DNA from: Halostella litorea
GTDB taxonomy: Archaea > Halobacteriota > Halobacteria > Halobacteriales > Natronoarchaeaceae
DNA: 64,000 nt
NCBI RefSeq assembly: GCF_004785955.1
Contig: NZ_ML214300.1
Location: 237,223 to 301,222, forward strand
Direction: 5' to 3'
Shown here: positions 27,079-38,990 of the stretch, in pieces
Layout: each line of letters starts with the position of its first letter
How positions within the stretch are numbered: the stretch's first letter is position 1
Translations under genes and position numbers: made by a program
The notes under the pieces: generated by a model
The model's database searches: none
What the model was told of the DNA's origin: nothing
Seen by the model: the letters and a program-made list of their open reading frames with translations, nothing else

Positions 27079-27975
27079 CTATTCGTCGGCCGGGTCGAAG
27101 GCGTCCACAGCGGCCCGATACCCCTCGCGGAACGTCGGGTACGCGAACTCGTAACCGAGCGACCTGAGCCGGTCGTTCGAACAGCGCTTGCTCGTCTGGA
27201 TCCGCCGCTCCGCGGCCGCCGAGAGGTCGCCCTCGGCCAGACGCTCCGCTTTCGTCCGCTTCGCCGGCGGATCGACGCCGCACTGGTCGGCCAGCCAGTC
27301 CGCGAACGCCCACTTCGAGACCGGTTCGTCGTCGACGACGAGTACGACGTCGTCGCGCGCCCGGTCGGCCTCCAGCAGGTACCGCACCGCGCCGGCGGCG
27401 TCGTCGCGGTGCACCATGTTCAGGTACCCCTCCGTCACCGGCCCCTCGACGTACCGCCGGAGCCGGTACCTGTCGGGGCCGTACAGTCCGGCGAACCGCG
27501 CGACGGTGCCGTCGATTCCGTGCTCCGCCGCCGCCTCGCGGGCGACGCGCTCGGCTTCGGCGAGAACCTCCGTCTTCTCCGTGGTCGGGTCCAGCGGCGT
27601 CGTCTCGTCGACCCAGTCGCCGCCGTGGTCGCCGTATACGCCGGTGCTGGACGTGTACACCAGCCGGTCCGGCGGCGATGCGCGCTCGCCGAACGCCGCG
27701 ATGGCCGTCCGCAGGCCGTCGACGTACACGCGCCGGGCCGCGTCGGCCCCGCGCCCGCCCGAACTCGCGGCGAACACCAGCGCGTCGGCGTCCGGGACGT
27801 CCGCGAGCGACGCGGCGTCGGTCACGTCCGCCCGGACGGCGTCCAGGCCGGCGTCGCGGACGGCCTCGATCCCCGCGTCGGACCGGCGGACGCCGACGAC
27901 GTCGTGGCCGGCGCCGCGTAGCTGTCGACCCAGTTCCAACCCGACGTAGCCACAGCCGAGGACGGCGACGTTCAT
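27079..27975 (-). CDS. NAD-dependent epimerase/dehydratase-like protein (YeeZ type)
   Basis: This is a 298-residue extended short-chain dehydrogenase-like protein. The N-terminal Rossmann motif is VAVLGCGYVGLELGRQL (GxGxxG at residues 7-12). It has the SSTGVYGDHGGDW motif in place of a classical YxxxK site, as in the E. coli YeeZ group, whose function is unresolved. The start at 27975 fits the first beta strand. It probably binds NAD(P)H; its substrate is unknown. Confidence 0.85.
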   Translation of the reverse strand: MNVAVLGCGYVGLELGRQLRGAGHDVVGVRRSDAGIEAVRDAGLDAVRADVTDAASLADVPDADALVFAASSGGRGADAARRVYVDGLRTAIAAFGERASPPDRLVYTSSTGVYGDHGGDWVDETTPLDPTTEKTEVLAEAERVAREAAAEHGIDGTVARFAGLYGPDRYRLRRYVEGPVTEGYLNMVHRDDAAGAVRYLLEADRARDDVVLVVDDEPVSKWAFADWLADQCGVDPPAKRTKAERLAEGDLSAAAERRIQTSKRCSNDRLRSLGYEFAYPTFREGYRAAVDAFDPADE

Positions 27976-28006
27976 GGCCGTCCCTCCGGCCGGCAGCACG
28001 TCGCTC

Positions 28007-28435
28007 TCACGGCTGGCGCCCCGCGATGGCGTGTTGCACGTGGACGAACTCGTCGAAGGTCATCGGCGCGCGCCGCTCTATCTTCTGTTGGACCTCCTTG
28101 GGGTCCAGGTCGATGGCGAGTTCGCGGGCCACCGCGTCGACGTCCATGACGCCCGTCGTCATCCCGAGCAGCAGGTGTTCGCAGGCCATCTCGACGAGCG
28201 TATCGGCGTCGGGCGCGTCCGGGTCCAGCGCCTGGATCGCCGCCGCGGCCGCGAGCGTCAGGTCGGGCGCGTCGCCCGCGACCAGCGCCTCGACTGTCGA
28301 CCGCTCGACGTCCGCCGCCTCGGCGGCCCGGTCGACGCCGGCCGCCTCAACCGCGGCCGCGAGGTCCGCGTCGTACTCGCTCCGCAGGTCGGCGGGCGAC
28401 AGCCCGTCGACGTCCGTTCGGTGGTCGTGAAACAT
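28007..28435 (-). CDS. Conserved haloarchaeal protein (DUF5791-like)
   Basis: This is a 142-residue acidic, all-helical protein without membrane segments. The N-terminal half (LSPADLRSEYDADLAAAVEAAG) contains an HTH-like stretch (RAAEAADVERSTVEALVAGDAPDLTLAAA) reminiscent of a DNA-binding fold. The C-terminal half carries KEVQQKIERRAPMTFDEFVHVQHAI. From memory it belongs to a haloarchaeal DUF5791 group. The gene is separated by 31 bases from the epimerase gene and may be co-transcribed. A regulatory role is possible but unproven. Confidence 0.7.
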   Translation of the reverse strand: MFHDHRTDVDGLSPADLRSEYDADLAAAVEAAGVDRAAEAADVERSTVEALVAGDAPDLTLAAAAAIQALDPDAPDADTLVEMACEHLLLGMTTGVMDVDAVARELAIDLDPKEVQQKIERRAPMTFDEFVHVQHAIAGRQP

Positions 28436-28451
28436 GGCTTCCCGTAGGGGA

Positions 28452-31400
28452 TCACCCTACAAGTGGCTTCAGATCGGCGCGCCCGGCGTCGGGCCACCCG
28501 GGCGACTCCTCGGTCCGCTGGCCGTCGACGTCACCGACGCCGCTTTTCCCCGGCGGCACGACGACGAGCACCGTCGTCGACGCCTCGAACGAGACGCGGG
28601 TCGAGCGGCCGAGCCGTTCGCCCTCGCCGTCCCCGTCGACGTCCACCGACACCGGCGAGCCGTCCCGGGAGTATGCGACCGTCGCGCCGGGCGTCGCCGG
28701 CGAGTCGCGGCCGGCGCGGACGGTGAACCGCGCGTACCGTCCGCCGAGGTCGACCTGCCACGCGTTCGCCGTCGCGAACCAGTACCCGGGGATGGGCGTC
28801 ACCGGCACGCCGGCCGGGACGGCGGTTCGCGCCCGGGCGAGTCGCTTCGTGGCGCGGTCGCCGGCACGACGCAGGCCGTCCTCGACCGCGCCTTCGAGCC
28901 GCGACCGCGCCGCCGCGCGGAGGCTGCTCGCGGCGTCCCGCACCGGCCCCTCGGGCGGGCGGACCGACCCGTCCTCCATCGCCTCGGACGTGGCGACCCG
29001 GAGCCGGGTCCGCACCCGGTCCCGCCACGCCGGCGCGGCGGGCGTCCCGCTCCGGGCGGCGGCCGCGTCGGCGATCGGCGCGGCCGCGGAGCCGTTTGCC
29101 AGCGCGATAGCGCGGGCGGCGGTCGAGTCCCACTCGGACAGCCCGTCCCTGACCGCGTCCCGGCTCTCGCGCCGGGACAGCGCGGTCGCGGCAGCCAGTT
29201 CGGCCGCCGTGGCGTCGGTCGCGTTCCGGAGCCCCTTCCGCACGGCCGACCAGAGGTTCCTCCGGCTGGCGACCACCCCCTCGTCGTCGACCGCGTCGAG
29301 CGCGCGGTTCGTCTCGCGGAGCGTCTTCGCCGCCGTCCGCAGGTCGACCCGGGTGGTGTCGTCGACGAACTCGCCGACGATCCCCTCCGCCGCGTCGCCG
29401 TACGGGACGGTGACGACGTTCTCGTTGCGCGCGACGAGCGGGTGATACGTCTCCCCGTCGGCGACCGCGGGAACCCTATCGTGGTCGACCGACGCCGTCG
29501 TCAGGTACGCCGGCGCGCCGTCGACGCGCAGGGTCGTCGGGCCGCCGTCCGTCGCGACGACGTGTCGCCCCGGCTGGTCGACCGCCCGGGCGGCGTCGAT
29601 CAGGTCCTGCAGTCGGTCGCCGGTAACCGCACCGAGGTCGCCGAGCGCGTCGTCGAGTTCCGCCTGGGTCTCCGCGACGACCTCGGCCTGGCGCTCCAGC
29701 AGCCGGATCGTGCGGTCGACGTACGCCGCGCGGACGCCGACCCGGGCGCGGTCGGCCACGCCGTCGTACCGCCCCGGCGGGTCGACGAGCGCCGACCGGC
29801 GCGAGCGGAGCTTCGCCGCTAGCTCGGCAGGCGGGTTGGCACCGGTCGCGAGGCCGGCCCGTTCGACCGTGACCGACACGTTGCGGACGCGCTCGCGGAG
29901 GTCGGCCACGTCCCGGTAGGCCCAGCGTTCGACCCCGTCCGGCTGCCGGCCGCCGACGGTGACCGTCCCGTCGACGTCGTCGCCGTCGGCGACGGCTCGC
30001 GCCAGTTCGTTCGCCCCGCCCCGGTCGACGACGAGCCGTCTCGCGGCGCGTCGTTCGATCCCCGCGAGGTTGGGGCCGTCCAGCGCGCCGCCGGGGGCGT
30101 GGACGCCCCTGACCGGGCGGTTCGGCACACGCTCGCCGGCGGCGTGCGTGCCGACGAGCCGGATCCCAACGCGGTGCCGGGTCGTCCACCGGTCGGTCGT
30201 CCAGACCGTCTCGTTGCCCCGCGTCCACTCGCGGTGTGCGTCGGTGCGTTCGGCGACGACCCGCCGGTAGCTTCGCAGTTCGTGCCAGCCGGGGGGCACC
30301 GACGGGAGCGACGCCCGCCCGTCCGTGACCGTCACGTCCGTCTCGCGGCGGGTGTCGTTCAGCGTCCAGTTGCCGCCCGCCGGTTCCGTCCGCGGGCGGA
30401 CGCTGGGCCGGACCGTCCTGGAGTTCGAGACCAGTCGCGCCTTCGTCCCGTACGCGTCGTCCACGACGGCGCTCAGGGACGGCCCCTCGGAGCCGGTCAG
30501 CAGGGCCGTCGCCGCCACGTCGGCCGTGTAGTTCACGCCGACCGTGGTGGTCCGGCCCGGCGAGACCGGTCCGGTCGCGTTCCCGACCCCGGGGAGCGTC
30601 CCGTTCGGCGGGTCGCCCTCGCCGAGGACGTAGTCGACCCACCCCTGGCCGCTGACGTTCGTCTCCGCGAGTGCGTCCGTGATGCCGACGCGGGCCGTTC
30701 CCTTGGCGAGACCGACCCGACCACCCGGGTCCGCGCGGCCGAACACCGACCGCTGCGTCTCCAGCGCCGCCCCGTTCGCGGCCAGTTCGACGTGGCGGTT
30801 GCCGACGACGTTGGCGACCGGCGCGCCGCCGTACTGGGCGTAGCCACGGGCCCAGGCCATCGCGTAGAGGCGTGCGGCGACGCGCCGGCCGAAGCCGGGA
30901 CCGTCCAGCGCACCGCGGTTCAGCCGGTCCTTGTAGCGCTCGACGCGGTCGTGGAGCAAGAGGACGGGTGTCGGGACGGTCACGTCGACCGTCCGCCGCT
31001 CCCGGGCGACCGTCTGGCCGTCGTGCTCCGCGACGAACGAGACGTTCCGAACGGTGACCGCGACCCGGCCCTCGCCGGCGCGATCGACGGTTACGCGGCG
31101 CTTCGCGGCGCGGAGGTCCGACGCGTTCGTCACCGGCGGCAGCGACGCGGTCGCGCCGGCGCTCCGAACGCGCTTGTCGACGGCTCCGAGCCGGGACTGG
31201 ACCGCGAGGTAGATCCGGATCCGCAGCGCGTCGCGGAACGGCGTCGAGTCGTTGATGACCCGGCCGTACCGGGTGTTCGCCGGCTCGACGACCGGAGCCG
31301 CCGCCGCCCGCCTGCTCGCGTCCGCGACCGCGTCCCGGACGACCGTCTGGACGGCCGCGTCGGCGCGGTCGACGGCGGCACCGGCGTCGACTTCTGGGGT

Positions 31401-31511
31401 CCGGTCGTGTTGGTCCAGCAGACTCGCGCCGAGTGTCGCGCTCCCGACGAGCAGGAGCACGCCGACCAGCGCGAACGGGACGCGCGCCCGGCGGTCGTCG
31501 GCCAGCCTCAT
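28452..31511 (-). CDS. Giant pilin-like cell-surface protein of the Tad-like operon (DUF7286-like)
   Basis: This 1,019-residue protein is the last and largest product of the pilus-like operon. The start codon at 31511 overlaps the previous gene by four bases. Residues 1-10 are short and basic (MRLADDRRAR) and are followed by a single hydrophobic helix (about 11-30), the layout of archaeal class III (pilin-like) signals. The rest is a long extracytoplasmic region rich in Val, Arg, Asp and Thr with several Asn-x-Ser/Thr sites and helical repeats. I recognise no enzymatic domain. It probably forms or caps an extracellular structure assembled by the ATPase and TadC. The family is, from memory, DUF7286 and uncharacterised. 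Confidence 0.72.
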   Translation of the reverse strand: MRLADDRRARVPFALVGVLLLVGSATLGASLLDQHDRTPEVDAGAAVDRADAAVQTVVRDAVADASRRAAAAPVVEPANTRYGRVINDSTPFRDALRIRIYLAVQSRLGAVDKRVRSAGATASLPPVTNASDLRAAKRRVTVDRAGEGRVAVTVRNVSFVAEHDGQTVARERRTVDVTVPTPVLLLHDRVERYKDRLNRGALDGPGFGRRVAARLYAMAWARGYAQYGGAPVANVVGNRHVELAANGAALETQRSVFGRADPGGRVGLAKGTARVGITDALAETNVSGQGWVDYVLGEGDPPNGTLPGVGNATGPVSPGRTTTVGVNYTADVAATALLTGSEGPSLSAVVDDAYGTKARLVSNSRTVRPSVRPRTEPAGGNWTLNDTRRETDVTVTDGRASLPSVPPGWHELRSYRRVVAERTDAHREWTRGNETVWTTDRWTTRHRVGIRLVGTHAAGERVPNRPVRGVHAPGGALDGPNLAGIERRAARRLVVDRGGANELARAVADGDDVDGTVTVGGRQPDGVERWAYRDVADLRERVRNVSVTVERAGLATGANPPAELAAKLRSRRSALVDPPGRYDGVADRARVGVRAAYVDRTIRLLERQAEVVAETQAELDDALGDLGAVTGDRLQDLIDAARAVDQPGRHVVATDGGPTTLRVDGAPAYLTTASVDHDRVPAVADGETYHPLVARNENVVTVPYGDAAEGIVGEFVDDTTRVDLRTAAKTLRETNRALDAVDDEGVVASRRNLWSAVRKGLRNATDATAAELAAATALSRRESRDAVRDGLSEWDSTAARAIALANGSAAAPIADAAAARSGTPAAPAWRDRVRTRLRVATSEAMEDGSVRPPEGPVRDAASSLRAAARSRLEGAVEDGLRRAGDRATKRLARARTAVPAGVPVTPIPGYWFATANAWQVDLGGRYARFTVRAGRDSPATPGATVAYSRDGSPVSVDVDGDGEGERLGRSTRVSFEASTTVLVVVPPGKSGVGDVDGQRTEESPGWPDAGRADLKPLVG

Positions 31512-32350
31512 CGCTCCCACACCCTGACGACGATCCGTACTTCGCCGACCGCGACCGCCGACGCGGCCGCGTGTGGCGACTCGAACCCCGCTTCGAAGTC
31601 CCGGGCGAACTGCTCGGTCAGGGCGTCGGCGAGGCGGCCGTTCGCCCGCGCCACGTCGCGCCGCGTGCCGGGGCCGGGGCCGACCGCGACCGTCCCCAGC
31701 GCCCCGTCGATCCTGTCGTACCGGGCCGCAGTCAGCGGCGCCGTCGCGGGGTCCGACAGCGACAGCGCGGTTGTCGCCGGCGGGAACAGGGTCGCAACGA
31801 CGCCCGTCGCGGTCGCGCGGGCGACGCTCCGGTAGCCGTCGCCGGTCGGTTCGGCCGCCGCGCCCGGCGGGCCGCCGCTCGGTACCCTGAGTGTCGCGAC
31901 GTGGACGTCCGCCCCCTGCGGCGGCGGGTCGCCGGCCGACACCGCGCCGCGGACCGGCGACCCGGGGTAGGGCTCCCACGTCGCACGCACCGCGACCGAG
32001 GCGTTCGGCCGTGCGACGGCGGCGGCGACGGCCGCGGTCGCGCGGTCGACGTACGCGGCGCTGGCGGGCGAGATCGGGCGTCCCCACGCCGTGGCGTTCG
32101 CGACGGCGGCGTCGGCGAGCAGTTCCGCGAGGGTCCCCTGTGCGGACCGCTCCAGTTCGCGGCCGTCGACCGTCAGCGTGTAGTTCACCCGCTCGGTGCT
32201 CGCCCCGAGCGCGTCGGCCGTCTCGTCGGCCGCGTTCGCCCGGGACGGCCCGGGGTCGGCCGGCAGATACGCGAGCGTCGCGACCGCGCCGGTGACGAGC
32301 AGCAGGCAGAGCGCGGCGTCGACGACCGCGCTGACCCCGCGGTCGGTCAC
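31508..32350 (-). CDS. Pilin-like membrane protein (DUF7284-like)
   Basis: This 280-residue protein starts with GTG at 32350; the GTGA overlap with the preceding stop supports the choice. The N-terminus reads MTDRGVSAVVDAALCLLLVTG: a basic Arg-Gly just before a hydrophobic helix, as in prepilin signals cut by PibD-type peptidases. The remaining residues form an extracytoplasmic domain rich in Ala, Thr and Asp without recognised motifs. It is coupled to both neighbours by overlaps of four bases. It is most likely a minor pilin or pseudopilin of the machine encoded upstream. Confidence 0.72.
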   Translation of the reverse strand: MTDRGVSAVVDAALCLLLVTGAVATLAYLPADPGPSRANAADETADALGASTERVNYTLTVDGRELERSAQGTLAELLADAAVANATAWGRPISPASAAYVDRATAAVAAAVARPNASVAVRATWEPYPGSPVRGAVSAGDPPPQGADVHVATLRVPSGGPPGAAAEPTGDGYRSVARATATGVVATLFPPATTALSLSDPATAPLTAARYDRIDGALGTVAVGPGPGTRRDVARANGRLADALTEQFARDFEAGFESPHAAASAVAVGEVRIVVRVWER

Positions 32351-32745
32351 GACCACACCTCCACGCGCAGGCGGCCGACGCGAACCGACCCCGGCCCGAC
32401 CCGGACGCTCGCCGTTCGGACGGCGGACGCGGCGTCGGGCGGGGCGTCGGCGCCCGCGGTCCACGTCTCACCGCCGGCGGTCAGCGTGATCCGGACCTCG
32501 TGGCCGCCGGGCGCGGCGTGCAGCCCCGACGGGAGGTCCGCGGGCGCGACGACGCCCGTCTCCGCGACCGCGCGCCAGACGCGGCGGAGGGTCGGCGTCG
32601 CGTCACGCGCGCCGTCCCCCGGAAGCGTCGCGTCGACGGTCGCCGCGTACAGCGCGAGGCCGGCCCCGACCGCCAGCACCGCCGCCACGGCGGCGAGCGG
32701 TTCGGTCTGGCCCCTACGCGTCGACCAGCGTGACACGCTTCTCAC
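32347..32745 (-). CDS. Pilin-like protein (DUF7285-like)
   Basis: This is a 132-residue protein with N-terminal STRRGQTEPLAAVAAVLAVGAGL: two arginines, then glycine and a glutamate at +3 of a hydrophobic helix, close to the cleavage site and helix of type IV prepilins. The C-terminal 90 residues form a small extracytoplasmic domain. The start is either GTG at 32745 or GTG at 32736; both overlap the previous gene, and the longer one is listed. It sits third in the block of membrane-anchored subunits and is translationally coupled to the next gene. Confidence 0.7.
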   Translation of the reverse strand: MRSVSRWSTRRGQTEPLAAVAAVLAVGAGLALYAATVDATLPGDGARDATPTLRRVWRAVAETGVVAPADLPSGLHAAPGGHEVRITLTAGGETWTAGADAPPDAASAVRTASVRVGPGSVRVGRLRVEVWS

Positions 32746-33184
32746 CCCAGGAGACCGTTCTGACGACGATGCGGTCGTCGGCGTCCCGCCACGAGGGGTC
32801 GCGGTCGCGCGCGTCGGCGGCCGCCGCCGCGAACGCGGCCGGCGACTCGAAGACGTGCGCGGGGTCGGCACCCTGCGCGACCTCCCACAGCAGGGTCCCG
32901 TCGCCGACCGGCGTCACGGGGCCGTACGCGAACGTCGCCCGGGCGGTCCCGCCGCCGTCGCGGAGCGCGAGACGGTGCGGGCCGAGCCTGACCGCGTCGG
33001 CCGAGACCGGCTGTTCCGCGGTCGCCGGGTATTCGCTCGCGGCGACGGCGTCGACGGTATCGGCCGCCCCGGCCGCGTCGGGCGGTGCCTGCGACGGGAG
33101 GTCGGCGGCCACGCCGGCGAACGCGACGCCGGTCAGCGCGACGCCGACGGTGAGATACCACGTGTCGACTGGCGCGTCGAACAT
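32714..33184 (-). CDS. Membrane-anchored pilus-operon protein (DUF7283-like)
   Basis: This 156-residue protein starts at the ATG at 33184 with an N-terminal helix (TWYLTVGVALTGVAFAGVAADL, residues 8-29). An acidic extracytoplasmic part follows. There are no positive charges before the helix, unlike the next three genes, so it may be a bitopic protein or carry an ordinary signal rather than a prepilin signal. A GTTTAT box (33211-33216, minus strand) 27-32 bases upstream suggests that a new transcript starts here. Its C-terminal end overlaps the next gene by about 32 bases. Confidence 0.7.
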   Translation of the reverse strand: MFDAPVDTWYLTVGVALTGVAFAGVAADLPSQAPPDAAGAADTVDAVAASEYPATAEQPVSADAVRLGPHRLALRDGGGTARATFAYGPVTPVGDGTLLWEVAQGADPAHVFESPAAFAAAAADARDRDPSWRDADDRIVVRTVSWGEKRVTLVDA

Positions 33185-33210
33185 GGCCCGGGTTCGCCGC
33201 GCTCTCCGAC

Positions 33211-33216
33211 ATAAAC
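33211..33216 (-). promoter_or_regulatory. Internal TATA box inside the pilus-like operon
   Basis: GTTTAT on the minus strand lies 27-32 bases before the ATG at 33184, just beyond the stop of the TadC-like gene. Confidence 0.45.
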
Positions 33217-33218
33217 CT

Positions 33219-34916
33219 TCAGACCAGCAGGCGGGCGAGCGCGAACGCGCCGAGGAACGTCGGCGTGGCGGCACAGAGCGCCCGTCCGACGCGGTAGCCG
33301 ACCAGCGGCCGGTCGATGCCGGCTTCGAGCCCCGCGGCCAGCGCCGAGAGGACCGCGGCGAGCAGGAGCACGTACCCGCCGACCGCGAGGCCGAGCCCCG
33401 CCGGCGGCAGCGCCGGCTCGCCGAACTTCGTCCCGCCGATGCCGCCGGCGAGCGCCACTGTCACGCCCGCGACGAGCGGCCCGAACACGGCGGCCGTGTG
33501 GCCGAGCGTCCCCGTGACCCGCGAGAGTTCGTGGCGGGCCTCGCGCTCCACGGTCCGGAGCTCCTCGACGTGGTCCGCGGTGGCGACGACCGCGCCGCCG
33601 GCCGGGCGCCCCTCGCTCGCGGCCAGCGCGAGCAGCGCCGCGGTGCTCCGGACGCGCGGGCTCGGCACGTCAGCGAGCGCGCCGTGGTCGCCAAGGAACG
33701 ACTCCCGGACGCCGACGCCGAGCTGGCGCTGTCGGCGGGCCGCGCCGGCGAGCACGTCGCCCATCCCGCCGTCGACCTCCTCGCTCGCCCGCGCGATAGC
33801 CGACTCGACGGCCGCGCCCTCGGCGACGCGCCGCCCGACGAGGTAGAGCGCGTCGACCAGGCCGCCCTCGACGGCCCGGACGCGCTCCCGAACCGCGACG
33901 ACCGGGCGGTACCAGGCGACGAGCGTGACGCCAGCACCGAATCCGATTGCGGCGACGGGGGCGGTCCAGACGGGCAGGGCTACGAGGCCGACCCCCGCGC
34001 CGACACAGGCCGCGACGCCGCCGGCGGCGAGCGGCGGCCAGCGCCGGTCCGGGACGTCCGGGTGCGAGCGCGAGACGGCCGGCGGCGGGAACGCGACTGG
34101 CCGCCGGAGGAGCAGCCACACGCCGGCACCGACGAGGCCGAGCGGGAGGACGACGTCGTAGACGAACGCGAACAGCGGGAGGGTGACCGGAACGCCGGCA
34201 ACGCTGGCGGCCGGCACCGCCGCGACCAGCGAGAGCGGGAGCAAGACGCCGAACGCGTACAGCGCGGTGGCCGGGGCGCGCACGTCGCTCGCGAACGCCG
34301 CCATCCGGTCGCGGGTCCCGTCGAGGACGGCCGTCAGCGCGCGGTCCAGCGTCCGCGACCGCTCGGCCGCCGGCGCGGCCGCGGCCGCCAGCAGCAGGTG
34401 CGCCGAGCGCGTCAGCGCCGGGAACCACTCGTCCCACTCGTCGGCGAAACTCGCGAGGCCCGTCCGCGGGGTCCCCTCCGCCGCCCGAACGCGCTCGCGG
34501 AGGCTCCGCGCCAGCGGCCCCCGGCCGGTTCGGGCGGCGAAGGCCGTCGCCGTCTCCGCGGCGGGCGTGATCCGCATCCGCAAGACGGCGCGGCCGACCA
34601 GCCCCGGCGCGTCGCCGAGCGCCGCGGTCCGCCGCGCGGCCGCGGCGACGACCGGGGCACGATGGACGCCGTGGGCCGCGGCCAAGGCGAGCGCGAGGCC
34701 GCCCACCGCACCCCCGGGACGCATCGCCGGCGGCACGACGGCCGTGACCGCGACGCCGAGCGCGGCGACGACGACCGCCGCGCCGTAGCCAGCGTCGACG
34801 ACTGTCTCCGCGGTCGTGTCGGTGTCGAGAAAGCCAAGCGAGCGGCGCAGTTCCGCGCTCGGGGACGTCTCAACGGGCGACAGCCGGGCGAGCGCCCGGA
34901 GCAGCGCCGTCAGCAT
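33219..34916 (-). CDS. TadC/PilC-like type II secretion system F-domain membrane platform
   Basis: This 565-residue membrane protein has T2SSF-type helical segments separated by clusters of transmembrane helices. The last cluster spans roughly residues 475-565. It would form the inner platform on which the secretion ATPase acts. Hydrophobic stretches such as VVVAALGVAVTAVVPPAM and AAVFGPLVAGVTVALAGGIGG are evident. Its start at 34916 overlaps the ATPase stop by seven bases, an arrangement common for secretion ATPase and TadC pairs in archaea. It would assemble a type IV-like pilus or archaellum-like filament. Confidence 0.85.
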   Translation of the reverse strand: MLTALLRALARLSPVETSPSAELRRSLGFLDTDTTAETVVDAGYGAAVVVAALGVAVTAVVPPAMRPGGAVGGLALALAAAHGVHRAPVVAAAARRTAALGDAPGLVGRAVLRMRITPAAETATAFAARTGRGPLARSLRERVRAAEGTPRTGLASFADEWDEWFPALTRSAHLLLAAAAAPAAERSRTLDRALTAVLDGTRDRMAAFASDVRAPATALYAFGVLLPLSLVAAVPAASVAGVPVTLPLFAFVYDVVLPLGLVGAGVWLLLRRPVAFPPPAVSRSHPDVPDRRWPPLAAGGVAACVGAGVGLVALPVWTAPVAAIGFGAGVTLVAWYRPVVAVRERVRAVEGGLVDALYLVGRRVAEGAAVESAIARASEEVDGGMGDVLAGAARRQRQLGVGVRESFLGDHGALADVPSPRVRSTAALLALAASEGRPAGGAVVATADHVEELRTVEREARHELSRVTGTLGHTAAVFGPLVAGVTVALAGGIGGTKFGEPALPPAGLGLAVGGYVLLLAAVLSALAAGLEAGIDRPLVGYRVGRALCAATPTFLGAFALARLLV

Positions 34917-36799
34917 TTCCCCTCGGCGTAGGCCCGCGTCACGTCCTCGGGACGCGTCCGCTCGTCCGCGGCGAGCCCCGCGATCAGGTCCTCGCGTGCG
35001 GCGAGTCGGTCGCGCAGGTCGGCGTACGTCTCGCCGGCGTCGGCGAGCGTCGGGAGCAGGCGGCTCTCGCCGCGGTCGATCCGTCCGGTTGCGGCGAGGC
35101 CGTCGTCGGTCATCGCGTACAGCGGCTCGAACCCGACGCCGCCGTCGCGGTCGACCACCTCCTCGACGGCCCGCACGCGCCGCGCCCGCTCGCCGTCGTC
35201 CCGGTACGCTTCGAGCGTGACGACCAGATCGGTCGTCGCGAACGACGACTCCGGGACGCCCAAATCGGAGACGACGCGCTCGCGGACGCTCTCACCGCCG
35301 TCGCCGTGGATCGTGCCGAGCACGGCGCTGGCGTTCGCCCCCACCCGCATCGCCTCGTACAGCACCTGTGCCTCCTCGCCACGGACCTCGCCGAGGACGA
35401 GTCCGCCCTCGCCCAGCCGCAGCGCCGTCCGGAGCGCCTCCGTCGGCGCGATCCCCGGGCCGTCGTCGAGCGTCGTCCGGACCGGCTGGACGTCGCGTCC
35501 GGCGGCCTGGAGCGCGGCCACCGGGAGCTCCGGCGTGTCCTCGATGGCGACGACCCGCGTCTCGGCCGGGATCTCCCAGAGGAGCGACCCGAGCGTCGTC
35601 GTCTTCCCGGCCCCGCGCGCCCCGGCGACGAGCGCCGCCGCGCCGCGCTCGACCGCCACGGAGAGGAGCGCGGCCGCGTCGGCCGGGAGGGTCCCGTTCG
35701 CCACGAGCGCGGGGAGCGTGAACGCGTCCTCGCCGTGTGCGCGGAACGCGAAGGCGACGCCGTCGCTGACCGGGTCGGTCACGCCCGCGACGCGGATCCG
35801 GTCGCCGGCCGCCGTCTCCGCCGCGGCGTCGAGCGTCGGCGCGGCCCGGGAGAACCCACGGCCGCTCGCGCGGCGAAAGCGGGAGGCAAGCGCCGCCGCG
35901 CCGTCCTCGGTGAGGCGGACGTTCGTCCGCATCGTCTCGCCGTCGACCACCGCCCGGAGGGGGTTCTCCGTCACCGGCGCGGTCGCGTACACGTCGGAGA
36001 CGCGCGGGTCCGCGAGGAGGTCCTCCAGCACCCCGAACCCGCGGGCATGCTTCCGGAGCACGTCCGCGAGCAGGCAGACCGGGTCGTCGCCGTCCGCGAC
36101 GCGCCTGACCGCCCGCCCCGGCGCACGGTCGCCGCCCTCGACCGCGCCCGTCGCCAGCGCCTCGTGGGCGTCGACCAGCGTCGCCGTCGCGTCCGGCGGG
36201 AGGTCCTCCTCGACGGGCGCGAGGTGGTAGGTCCGCACGCCGTCGCCCTCCCGCGCGTAGACGCGGGCGGTCGACCCAGTGTCCAGGTCCCGGGCGTCGA
36301 CCAGCCGTGCGTCGGCCGGCGGCCGGGAGCGGACGCGGGAGCCGGCGACCGCGACTCCGACCGACGGCCGGAGCGCGTCGGCGTACCCGTCGACGGCGGT
36401 CGCGAGTTCGAGCAGTCCCGTCTCGGCCGCGACGTCGCTCACCGGACTGGCCCGCGCGCCGGCGTCCCGGGCGGCCCGGAGCGGGTCGCGCCGCGCGGTC
36501 GCGGCAAGCGTCTCATCGCGGAAGGCGACGCGCTCCGCGAACCGGCCGGCGGCGACCAGCAGCGCCGCGGCGGCGTCCTCGTACGCCCGTTCGACGCCGC
36601 GGGACCGCGTCAGCACCGCCTCCGCGTCGCGGTCGGTCAGCGACGTCACAACGGTCTCGCGGCAGTCCGCCTCGTCGGCGAGTCTGCCGTCGCCCGAACA
36701 GTCGTCGGCGTCGACGACGAGGCGGTCGCCGTCGAACGAGGGGCGACAGCCGCAGGGCCGCTCGTCGCCCTCCCGGAACCGGTCGAAGATCCCTCGCAT
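34910..36799 (-). CDS. Type IV pilus / Tad-type secretion ATPase
   Basis: This is a 629-residue motor ATPase. Walker A is VAGARGAGKTTTLGS (about 391-405), the Asp box is in IEDTPEL, Walker B includes GGLVLGEVRGEE, and the His box is GTIHGDGGES. The N-terminal region has four spaced cysteines (Cys16, Cys18, Cys34, Cys46), possibly a metal-binding knot. The central region resembles CpaF/TadA, although the N-terminal half is longer and divergent. It powers assembly of the filament with the TadC-like protein. A TTTAGG box at 36825-36830 overlaps the upstream stop codon and lies 26-31 bases before the ATG. Confidence 0.88.
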   Translation of the reverse strand: MRGIFDRFREGDERPCGCRPSFDGDRLVVDADDCSGDGRLADEADCRETVVTSLTDRDAEAVLTRSRGVERAYEDAAAALLVAAGRFAERVAFRDETLAATARRDPLRAARDAGARASPVSDVAAETGLLELATAVDGYADALRPSVGVAVAGSRVRSRPPADARLVDARDLDTGSTARVYAREGDGVRTYHLAPVEEDLPPDATATLVDAHEALATGAVEGGDRAPGRAVRRVADGDDPVCLLADVLRKHARGFGVLEDLLADPRVSDVYATAPVTENPLRAVVDGETMRTNVRLTEDGAAALASRFRRASGRGFSRAAPTLDAAAETAAGDRIRVAGVTDPVSDGVAFAFRAHGEDAFTLPALVANGTLPADAAALLSVAVERGAAALVAGARGAGKTTTLGSLLWEIPAETRVVAIEDTPELPVAALQAAGRDVQPVRTTLDDGPGIAPTEALRTALRLGEGGLVLGEVRGEEAQVLYEAMRVGANASAVLGTIHGDGGESVRERVVSDLGVPESSFATTDLVVTLEAYRDDGERARRVRAVEEVVDRDGGVGFEPLYAMTDDGLAATGRIDRGESRLLPTLADAGETYADLRDRLAAREDLIAGLAADERTRPEDVTRAYAEGKC

Positions 36800-36824
36800 G
36801 CGCCGGGGTCGCCGCGGCCTCCTA

Positions 36825-36830
36825 CCTAAA
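36825..36830 (-). promoter_or_regulatory. TATA box of the secretion ATPase gene
   Basis: TTTAGG on the minus strand overlaps the stop codon of the preceding gene and is 26-31 bases before the ATPase ATG, indicating internal leaderless initiation. Confidence 0.45.
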
Positions 36831-37287
36831 CCCCCGGACGGTCGACGACGACGGTCTGTTCCCCGTCGACCCGCACGAGGCGGAGCCGGAGCTGGTAGTC
36901 GCCGCCCCCAGAGAGTTCGAGCGGGCCGGCGGCCGGGCGGACCGGGGCGTCCAGCGTCACGACGCGCCGGTCCCGCCCCGCGACGGCGTACGCGACCCTG
37001 GACCGCGAAGACCCCTCCGTCGGCTCCCGGATCGTCAGTTCGTCGACGCCGGCGCGGTGCCAGCTCCGCTCGGGCAGCGACACGGTGACGCTGCGGCGCG
37101 GCCCGTTCGACGCGCCGGGTACCGTCTCCTCCGTCGCGAGCAGCGACGCGGCGGTGCGCTCTATCCGGTCTATCTCCCCCCGCACCTGGCTGTCGGTCGC
37201 GCGCTCCCGGCCGTCGTCGACCGCCGGGAGCGACGCCGCGACCAGCGCCGTCGCGAGCAGGACCGCGAGGACGACCCGGACCGTCAC
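36826..37287 (-). CDS. Small exported or membrane-anchored pilus-operon protein (DUF7311-like)
   Basis: This 153-residue protein begins MTVRVVLAVLLATALVAASL, a short basic start followed by a hydrophobic helix, so it is anchored or exported. The rest is a beta-rich acidic domain with no recognised motif (SVTVSLPERSWHRAGV, VAYAVAGRDRRVVTLD). It overlaps the coiled-coil gene by four bases. From memory it fits a haloarchaeal DUF7311 family found beside secretion ATPases. It is probably an accessory subunit of the filament machine. Confidence 0.7.
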   Translation of the reverse strand: MTVRVVLAVLLATALVAASLPAVDDGRERATDSQVRGEIDRIERTAASLLATEETVPGASNGPRRSVTVSLPERSWHRAGVDELTIREPTEGSSRSRVAYAVAGRDRRVVTLDAPVRPAAGPLELSGGGDYQLRLRLVRVDGEQTVVVDRPGV

Positions 37288-37796
37288 AGCGCGTCGCGGA
37301 GGCGGGCGACGACGCCCGCGTCGTTCGCTCCGTCGTCCGCCGGGCCGTCCGCGTCGGCGGCCGCCGCGTCCGACCGTTCGGGTCCCGTCGATCGCCCGAC
37401 CGCGGCCCCCGTTGCCGCCGCTGGGTCCGGTTGGTCGGCTCGCACCCCCGGGGCGGCTCCGTCTGGTCCGTCAGCCGGGGTCCTGGCAGCCGCCCGCCTC
37501 GCGTCGGCTTCGAGGTCGTCGACCCGGGCCTCCAGATCCTCGACCCCGGCGACGGCGGCGTTCGCGCGCGCCTCCACGTCCTCGTTGACCGAGCGGACGC
37601 TCCCGACGTAGCCCCGGACCGCCTGCAGGCCGGCGTCCAGTTCCGCGATCCGCTCGTCCATCTCCTCGACCCGGCGTTCGAGTTCCTCGACGCGGCCGGT
37701 CAGTTCGGCGTCGTCGGCGACCGAAGGCAGGTCGGCGTCCGCATCGGTCAGCGCGCGCTCGACGGCGGCGAGCCGCTCGGCGATGTCGTCGGCCAT
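37284..37796 (-). CDS. Coiled-coil protein at the head of the pilus-like operon (DUF7310-like)
   Basis: This 170-residue soluble protein has a predicted coiled coil from about residue 30 to 105 (heptad pattern in RVEELERRVEEMDERIAEL and VEDLEARVDDLEADAR). A disordered Ala/Asp/Pro-rich tail follows, ending in a short helix (AGVVARLRDAL). The ATG at 37796 is chosen over one seven codons upstream because the TATA box at 37823-37828 is then 27-32 bases away. As the operon's first gene it may scaffold or regulate the ATPase. Its family is haloarchaea-specific. Confidence 0.72.
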   Translation of the reverse strand: MADDIAERLAAVERALTDADADLPSVADDAELTGRVEELERRVEEMDERIAELDAGLQAVRGYVGSVRSVNEDVEARANAAVAGVEDLEARVDDLEADARRAAARTPADGPDGAAPGVRADQPDPAAATGAAVGRSTGPERSDAAAADADGPADDGANDAGVVARLRDAL

Positions 37797-37822
37797 GGCA
37801 CGGGGTGGCCGCGGCATCGTTC

Positions 37823-37828
37823 ATAAAC
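37823..37828 (-). promoter_or_regulatory. TATA box of the pilus-like operon
   Basis: GTTTAT on the minus strand lies 27-32 bases before the ATG at 37796. It marks the main promoter of the minus-strand operon that runs to 28452. Confidence 0.55.
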
Positions 37829-37845
37829 CCTCGTCGCGGGACGGA

Positions 37846-37872
37846 CGGTCCGCATCCCCCCGGCGCGGACCG
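37846..37872. promoter_or_regulatory. Inverted repeat centred between the pilus-like operon and cetZ2
   Basis: CGGTCCGC (37846-37853) and GCGGACCG (37865-37872) form a perfect 8-bp inverted repeat with an 11-base spacer. Its centre lies within a few bases of the midpoint of the 117-base divergent intergenic region. Confidence 0.45.
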
Positions 37873-37913
37873 ACGGCGGAACGTTCAACTGTGGACCCTC
37901 CGAAAGCGGTTGC

Positions 37914-38990
37914 ATGAAAGTCGTCCTGATAGGTATCGGCCAGGCCGGCGGGAAGGTCACTCAGGCCCTGGTCGAGTTCGACGAACGAATGGACTTCGGT
38001 GCGGTCCGCGGCGCGGTCGCGGTCAACTCCGCGCAGACCGACTTGCAGTCGCTGGACCTCGACACGGTGCTGATCGGGCAGGACCGGGTGAAGGGACACG
38101 GCGTCGGCGGCGACAACGAACTCGGCGCGGAGGTGATGCAGGCGGACGCGCGGGAGGTGATGGACAGCATCGACGGCCGCATCACCGCCGAGGCCGACGC
38201 CATCTTCGTCGTCGCCGGCCTCGGCGGCGGCACCGGCAGCGGCGGCGCGCCGGTGCTGGCGAAGGAACTCGGCCGCGTGTACAGCGTCCCCGTCTACGCG
38301 CTCGGCGTCCTCCCCGGGCGCGGCGAGGGGGCGATGTACCAGGCCAACGCCGGCCGGTCGCTGAAGACGCTCGTCCGCGAGGCCGACGCCACTCTGCTGG
38401 TCGACAACGACGCCTGGCACGGCGCGGGCGAGAGCGTCGGGGAAGCGTACGACGCGATAAACGAGGCGATCGCACAGCGCGTCGGCCTCCTGCTTGCCTC
38501 CGGCGAGGCCGTCGACGGCGTCGCCGAGAGCGTCGTCGACTCCAGCGAGGTGATAAATACCCTCCGCGAGGGCGGCATCGCCGCGCTGGGCTACGCGAAC
38601 GCGAAGGCCGACCCCGACAGCGCGGAGAACGTCAACACCGTCACCAGCGTCACGCGCAAGGCGCTTCTGACCGGGACGAGCCTGCCCGACGCCGTGACCG
38701 CCGAGTCCGCGCTGCTCGTGATCGCCGGCGACTCGGACCGCATCCCCCGCAAGGGCGTCGAGCGCGCCCGCGCCTGGGTCGAGGAGGAGACGGGGAGCAT
38801 GCAGGTCCGGGGCGGCGACTTCCCGCTGGAGAGCGACCACCTCGCCGCACTCGTCCTACTGGGCGGCGTCGAGCGGGGCAAGCGCATCGAGGAGTTCATG
38901 GAGCGCGCCCGCGAGGCCCAGAAGCAACAGCCCGACGACGGCGACCCCGCCGAGCAGTTCAAAAACGAGGAGATAGACGACCTGTTCTGA
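37914..38990 (+). CDS. cetZ2: Tubulin-like protein CetZ (CetZ2-like)
   Basis: This is a 358-residue tubulin/FtsZ-superfamily GTPase. The tubulin signature GGGTGSG is at residues 104-110, preceded by IFVVAGL. The N-terminal nucleotide-binding segment is LIGIGQAGGKV, and the loop NSAQTDLQSL is CetZ-like. The C-terminus is short and ends IDDLF. CetZ proteins polymerise on the inner face of the membrane and affect cell shape and motility in Haloferax. The sequence resembles the crystallised CetZ2 as I remember it. It is divergent from the pilus-like operon, so the two may be co-regulated. The name CetZ2 rests on recall; CetZ itself is clear. Confidence 0.9.
   Translation: MKVVLIGIGQAGGKVTQALVEFDERMDFGAVRGAVAVNSAQTDLQSLDLDTVLIGQDRVKGHGVGGDNELGAEVMQADAREVMDSIDGRITAEADAIFVVAGLGGGTGSGGAPVLAKELGRVYSVPVYALGVLPGRGEGAMYQANAGRSLKTLVREADATLLVDNDAWHGAGESVGEAYDAINEAIAQRVGLLLASGEAVDGVAESVVDSSEVINTLREGGIAALGYANAKADPDSAENVNTVTSVTRKALLTGTSLPDAVTAESALLVIAGDSDRIPRKGVERARAWVEEETGSMQVRGGDFPLESDHLAALVLLGGVERGKRIEEFMERAREAQKQQPDDGDPAEQFKNEEIDDLF

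Follow-up and report, generated by a model that had tools for sequence, protein, structure and literature searches.

Results and discussion

The 64,000-nucleotide stretch of Halostella litorea DNA analysed here (the window) carries on its minus strand, at positions 28452-37796, an eight-gene operon that is likely to encode a type IV filament system of the PilB2/PilC2 type (subclade 4F), with the divergent tubulin gene cetZ2 as an old neighbour which is probably not an obligate partner. The parts of this system, their order, their motifs and the encoding of the peptidase and pilins in trans can be read from the sequence (Table 1). By homology we infer that the subunits are extracted into a short pilus or pseudopilus displaying DUF7286.

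In the proposed mechanism PibD, encoded elsewhere, would cleave the class III leaders from DUF7285 and DUF7286, and also from DUF7284 in loci where it has one. PilB2, the ATPase, would drive the PilC2 platform, lifting the subunits from the membrane into the short pilus or pseudopilus, and DUF7286 would display an extracellular body of ~950 residues, most likely as a tip or adhesin. DUF7311 and DUF7283 would be anchored accessory proteins and DUF7310 a cytoplasmic coiled-coil accessory, with PilA-type major pilins possibly supplied in trans. The cetZ2 gene would be an old upstream neighbour with its own promoter; a conditional role such as positioning is possible, any positioning by CetZ2 being speculative.

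Components of the operon and the neighbouring cetZ2

The initial annotation of this DNA had described eight minus-strand genes divergent from a tubulin gene, four of them encoding membrane-anchored subunits, one of about 1,019 residues. All eight were confirmed and can be assigned to named families, DUF7283, DUF7285, DUF7284 and DUF7286 are all N-terminally anchored, and DUF7286 has 1,019 aa when read from the ATG at 31511. The order of the eight genes recurs in dozens of haloarchaeal genomes from different families, and they can therefore be considered real rather than chance open reading frames (ORFs) in DNA of 76-78% GC. This GC content of the operon (window positions 28000-38000) compares with about 66-74% in the remaining window, and as a consequence long spurious ORFs overlap the operon on the opposite strand. 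The gap of 117 bases to cetZ2 is right if the coiled-coil gene begins at the ATG at 37796. This start was chosen because the position of the promoter fits, a TATA-like box being found ~25-30 nt upstream of it in the window and in relatives. DUF7310 has no hydrophobic segment.

The assignment of a secretion ATPase and a TadC-like platform was also right, given the T2SSE/TadA-type profile of the first and the T2SSF matches among orthologues of the second. PilB2 has an intact Walker A motif (GARGAGKTTT) and an N-terminal domain containing cysteines, and its nearest structures are the archaeal 2oap (2e-27), CpaF and FlaI. The platform gene adjoins the ATPase gene in the window. Its product has several hydrophobic segments, and T2SSF was matched in 10 of 14 PilC2 orthologues (best 1e-5), the window copy falling under the Pfam cut-off. 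The whole genome has five T2SSE matches.

The gene described as a cetZ2-like tubulin proved to be a genuine cetZ2. The protein matches CetZ_C (PF21011, 3e-66) and Tubulin (PF00091, 2e-30), and its best match in the PDB, 4b45 (E 1e-153), is far ahead of 4b46 (1e-99); we take these two to be CetZ2 and CetZ1 of Haloferax volcanii, respectively. An operon-specific CetZ2 tail was considered and rejected, the conserved C-terminal peptide occurring both with and without the operon. Its variant DDRLENLF tracks family f4.

Across relatives cetZ2 has its own box resembling a B recognition element (BRE) and TATA box, at about -37 to -24, which suggests that the cetZ2 transcript is leaderless. DUF7310 has a separate BRE/TATA-like box at -37 to -25, and for this reason the two genes need not share a core promoter despite their proximity. 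The box of cetZ2 is no less conserved in loci without the operon.

Prepilin-like subunits and components encoded in trans

The N-termini of DUF7284, DUF7285 and DUF7286 resemble those of class III prepilins, which makes the three proteins candidate pilin-like subunits. In 130 of 141 DUF7286 matches the motif R[GA]R[VI]P[FL][AS] stands ahead of the hydrophobic stretch, and the misses that were inspected are fragments or have starts one residue off. An R[GA]QxEP-type motif is found in 116 of 138 DUF7285 loci and an R[GA]xST-type motif in 88 of 140 DUF7284 loci; in family f5 many loci have a DUF7284 that apparently starts at the mature N-terminus. DUF7283 and DUF7311 have an N-terminal anchor but no class III prepilin motif.

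No prepilin peptidase had been seen in the window, in agreement with the genome's one Peptidase_A24 match lying on another contig (G000:C2:1063494). The claim that a standard pilin was missing stands in part: the window has no Pilin_N (PilA-type) gene, but three of its subunits are prepilin-like. Seven Pilin_N matches are found elsewhere in the genome.

The structure models of DUF7286 (pLDDT 82.9) and DUF7284 (pLDDT 88.5) are confident over most of their length. The DUF7286 model gave no Foldseek E below 0.3 against the PDB, parts of this 1,019-residue model having barely been tested. A known fold was rejected for DUF7286, whose best VIA Z of 6.5 was to unrelated proteins and under the noise level, and for DUF7284, with a best Z of 5.5 to ribosomal proteins and a Foldseek E of 0.3 or worse. 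Profile matches of DUF7284 to PDB entries of ribosomal uL16 (E 0.001 at best) were judged to be chance. As far as the models go, neither protein has a significant match among solved structures, and new folds are not thereby proven.

Pilin-like cassettes (DUF7286, DUF7284, DUF7285 and DUF7283) without an adjacent ATPase and platform were seen at loci L074, L076, L078, L080, L081, L085 and L089. These may borrow a motor encoded elsewhere.

Distribution of the operon and of cetZ2 adjacency

DUF7286 is present in 299 of 391 haloarchaeal genomes, covering 66 of 86 genera, with more distant members also found elsewhere in the phylum, in other families, as well as in the control, Methanosarcina acetivorans. 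DUF7286-like proteins of ~1,000-1,400 residues were observed outside the haloarchaea in families f13 and f19 (e.g. G398:C1:2429268-2432402), whereas the pil-2 locus had been described as restricted to haloarchaea.

Adjacency was surveyed in about one genome per genus, a CetZ_C match length of 480-496 nt being taken as CetZ2-like; an adjacent match of 528 nt in G240 was also counted as CetZ2. A divergently oriented CetZ2 gene was found within 10 kb at 35 of the 48 full-length DUF7286 loci (the window locus itself counted among them), compared with none of the 21 loci whose DUF7286 is divergent (Fisher 3e-9, kinship ignored). Direct distance accounts for 34 of the 35, the other being G040, in which the contig ends inside the operon and the contig with cetZ2 carries DUF7310, DUF7311 and PilB2. 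One of the 21, G221, occupies the usual site, but without CetZ2. Among the named loci, cetZ2 was inside the fetched stretch at 54 of 80, several others being cut by contig ends. The eight-gene order is identical in the adjacent loci and in many relocated ones.

Co-occurrence of cetZ2 with the operon is thus conserved as adjacency across many genera, but is not obligate. Six genomes have the operon and no CetZ2-like gene (G237, G036, G305, G128, G135 and G221). In G128 there is no CetZ match at all, and in G305 the coiled-coil gene is likewise unrecognised. Two more operon genomes without CetZ2, G121 and G388, are fragmentary. In G045 (L048:7780-12455) CetZ2 and a second CetZ gene were observed within 5.6 kb of DUF7286, the motor genes missing.

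Evolution of the neighbourhood

In many genomes the site is free of the operon, with the epimerase gene, DUF5791 and cetZ2 directly side by side, and in several families the operon sits between DUF5791 and cetZ2. Intermediate states were also found. In G012 (L049:16062-17000) an in-frame deletion joins the N-terminal portion of DUF7310 to the C-terminal portion of DUF7286, and the fusion frame of 313 codons is still open beside an intact cetZ2. In G212 (L227:6886-7470) only ~130 matched residues of the PilB2 N-terminus are left between cetZ2 and DUF5791, this frame being either a remnant or a reused small protein, and in G057 DUF7310 alone remains beside cetZ2. These scars indicate losses of the operon. 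In other genomes it has been split: G140 and G033 have kept the coiled coil and motor next to cetZ2, with the pilin-like genes elsewhere, and in G045 it is the pilin-like genes that stay with cetZ2 and the motor is gone.

In the PilB2 tree (quick method, midpoint root, no reference ATPases of other clades included) the adjacent loci fall in both main halves, broadly following families, and the relocated copies group together in a single nested clade (support 100). On the CetZ2 tree the adjacency label switches state at least 9 times, and well-supported branches force 6 of these switches. An old neighbourhood with repeated separation would be the simplest reading of these data, although the direction of separation is itself inferred, because the trees are unrooted.

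Table 1. Genes and other features of the locus, with window positions
Feature	Position	Strand	Remarks
cetZ2	37914..38990	+	Tubulin-superfamily CetZ2, 358 aa; conserved C-terminal peptide NEEIDDLF
Divergent intergenic region, 117 bp	37797..37913		A core promoter for each direction, back to back; position suggests leaderless transcripts for both
DUF7310 cytoplasmic coiled-coil protein	37284..37796	-	PF23991 2e-28; alternative start 37817
DUF7311 protein, one N-terminal hydrophobic segment (1-25)	36826..37287	-	PF23993 2e-46
PilB2, VirB11/TadA-type secretion ATPase	34910..36799	-	T2SSE 5e-17; TadA-family TIGR03819 3e-34
PilC2, TadC/T2SSF-like multi-span platform	33219..34916	-	T2SSF 0.003 in window copy
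DUF7283, N-terminal anchor without prepilin motif	32742..33184	-	PF23954 7e-54; hydrophobic segment 10-28
DUF7285 prepilin-like subunit	32347..32736	-	PF23956 1e-30; N-terminus RRG|QTEPLAAV, start taken from relatives
DUF7284 prepilin-like subunit	31508..32350	-	PF23955 1e-74; N-terminus DRG|VSAVVD, start taken from relatives
DUF7286 giant anchored surface subunit, 1,019 aa	28452..31511	-	PF23957 1174 bits; N-terminus RRA|RVPFALVG
DUF5791, chromosomal landmark downstream of operon	28007..28435	-	PF19104 7e-50
NAD-dependent epimerase, second landmark of site	27079..27975	-	Epimerase PF01370 2e-16; conserved beside DUF5791

Alternative explanations and the role of CetZ2

Several observations weigh against a PilB2/PilC2 filament system with cetZ2 as an old, non-obligate neighbour. 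The R[GA] leader is absent from DUF7284 in many f5 loci and DUF7286 carries an unusual +1 arginine, which makes processing by PibD uncertain. A PilA-type major pilin is missing from the operon. No filament was found for a pilB2/C2 system in the literature searched, and to our knowledge none is known for any such system. In addition, CetZ2 is somewhat commoner in genomes with DUF7286 (59 of 67) than in those without (12 of 20; Fisher p 0.008, kinship ignored), which leaves room for a functional link.

It is possible, but rather unlikely, that the operon encodes a pseudopilus-type secretion device instead of a pilus and exports DUF7286 or other proteins. The lack of a PilA-type gene, the small number of prepilin-like subunits (three, including the giant one) and the relationship of the ATPase and platform to the type II secretion system (T2SS) would all be consistent with such a device. 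However, subclade 4F systems have been linked to PilA-family pilins encoded elsewhere (PMC4858521), and the genome of the window has its seven Pilin_N matches.

A scaffold role for CetZ2 has been suggested by Brown and Duggin 2023 (PMC9856176). CetZ2 would then take part in the working of the machine as a membrane-associated tubulin polymer, scaffolding or positioning PilB2/PilC2, perhaps via DUF7310. The divergent adjacency reported above speaks for it, as do the split operons that keep the coiled coil and motor with cetZ2 (G140, G033 and G124), the coiled coil that stays alone with cetZ2 in G057, and the CetZ genes that adjoin pili loci in Thermococcales too (PMC9856176). Nevertheless we consider this improbable: six operon genomes lack CetZ2, one of them any CetZ, relocation has moved the coiled-coil gene with the rest of the operon but not cetZ2, cetZ2 is retained next to operon scars, G045 kept the opposite pieces with cetZ2, and the cetZ2 promoter is unchanged with or without the operon.

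An obligate partnership is disfavoured by the operon without CetZ2, CetZ2 without the operon, the scars and the unchanged promoter. The neighbourhood is conserved by position and probably ancient, CetZ2 and the operon are lost independently, and their association is a tendency and not a requirement. Because many genomes have separated cetZ2 from the operon, the tubulin is unlikely to be essential to the machine. There is a slim chance that PilB2/C2 builds a short appendage with a giant subunit of unsolved fold, that CetZ2 polymers set its assembly site via DUF7310 and that relatives lacking CetZ2 use another factor. If true, a cytoskeletal tubulin positioning an archaeal surface machine would be notable for cell biology, and this locus was the published candidate.

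That the operon arrived recently, as a mobile element that inserted next to cetZ2, as suggested by Brown and Duggin 2023 (PMC9856176) and in keeping with flanking genes identical with and without the operon (also PMC9856176), is very unlikely in view of its shared position between DUF5791 and cetZ2 in several families, a PilB2 tree broadly following families and the losses seen as scars in G012, G212 and G057.

Relation to previous work and known systems

The preferred reading, a PilB2/PilC2 filament system, places the operon in a group that has been reported before. The initial annotation had suggested a functionally undescribed system, a reading ruled out by Makarova et al. 2016, Losensky et al. 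2015 and Brown and Duggin 2023, in which it is already the haloarchaeal pilB2/C2 type IV pilus regulon (PMC4858521, PMC4292770, PMC9856176). Subclade 4F loci were described with a coiled-coil protein found only in the halobacterial system (arCOG07564) and an FtsZ-family gene nearby (Makarova et al. 2016, PMC4858521). The window locus holds one coiled-coil gene, DUF7310, which presumably corresponds to arCOG07564. Brown and Duggin 2023 (PMC9856176) identified the gene next to the pilB2/C2 regulon as cetZ2 in particular, an arrangement that they found in Haloferacales and Halobacteriales but not in Natrialbales. The cetZ2-operon neighbourhood is thus already known, and what is added here is the census, the scars, the promoter comparison and the structure models.

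The pil-2 locus of Halobacterium salinarum is co-transcribed (Losensky et al. 2015, PMC4292770), and pilB2 is 8.5-fold up in adherent cells, yet weakly expressed; pilC2 has an in-frame stop codon and pilB2 is interrupted in strain NRC-1 (PMC4292770). Deletion of cetZ2 in H. volcanii had mild shape effects in early biofilm (PMC10606840). No mutant phenotype of the operon was found in the literature searched. With its giant DUF7286 and the lack of known phenotypes, this is among the least understood of the common haloarchaeal type IV systems.

The bacterial Tad pilus resembles the operon in its TadA/CpaF-like ATPase and TadC-like platform. It was rejected as an identity for the operon, whose proteins do not include the full TadA/TadB/TadC, Flp, TadV and secretin set: there is no Flp pilin, TadV or secretin among them and only one platform gene. 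In the PilB3/C3 and PilB1/C1 systems of Haloferax an ATPase and platform likewise assemble peptidase-processed pilins (PMC6491452), but with other ATPase clades, other pilin sets and a demonstrated role in adhesion. In Thermococcales, too, type IV pili-like loci have CetZ as a neighbour (PMC9856176), although they are set apart, by the papers' descriptions, by another ATPase clade and other pilin families. The closest likeness is to the haloarchaeal pilB2/C2 regulon (subclade 4F; pil-2 of H. salinarum), which shares the ATPase, the TadC-like protein, a coiled-coil gene, several pilin-like genes, the large surface protein and the cetZ neighbour (PMC4858521, PMC9856176, PMC4292770), and from which the operon of the window differs in nothing essential.

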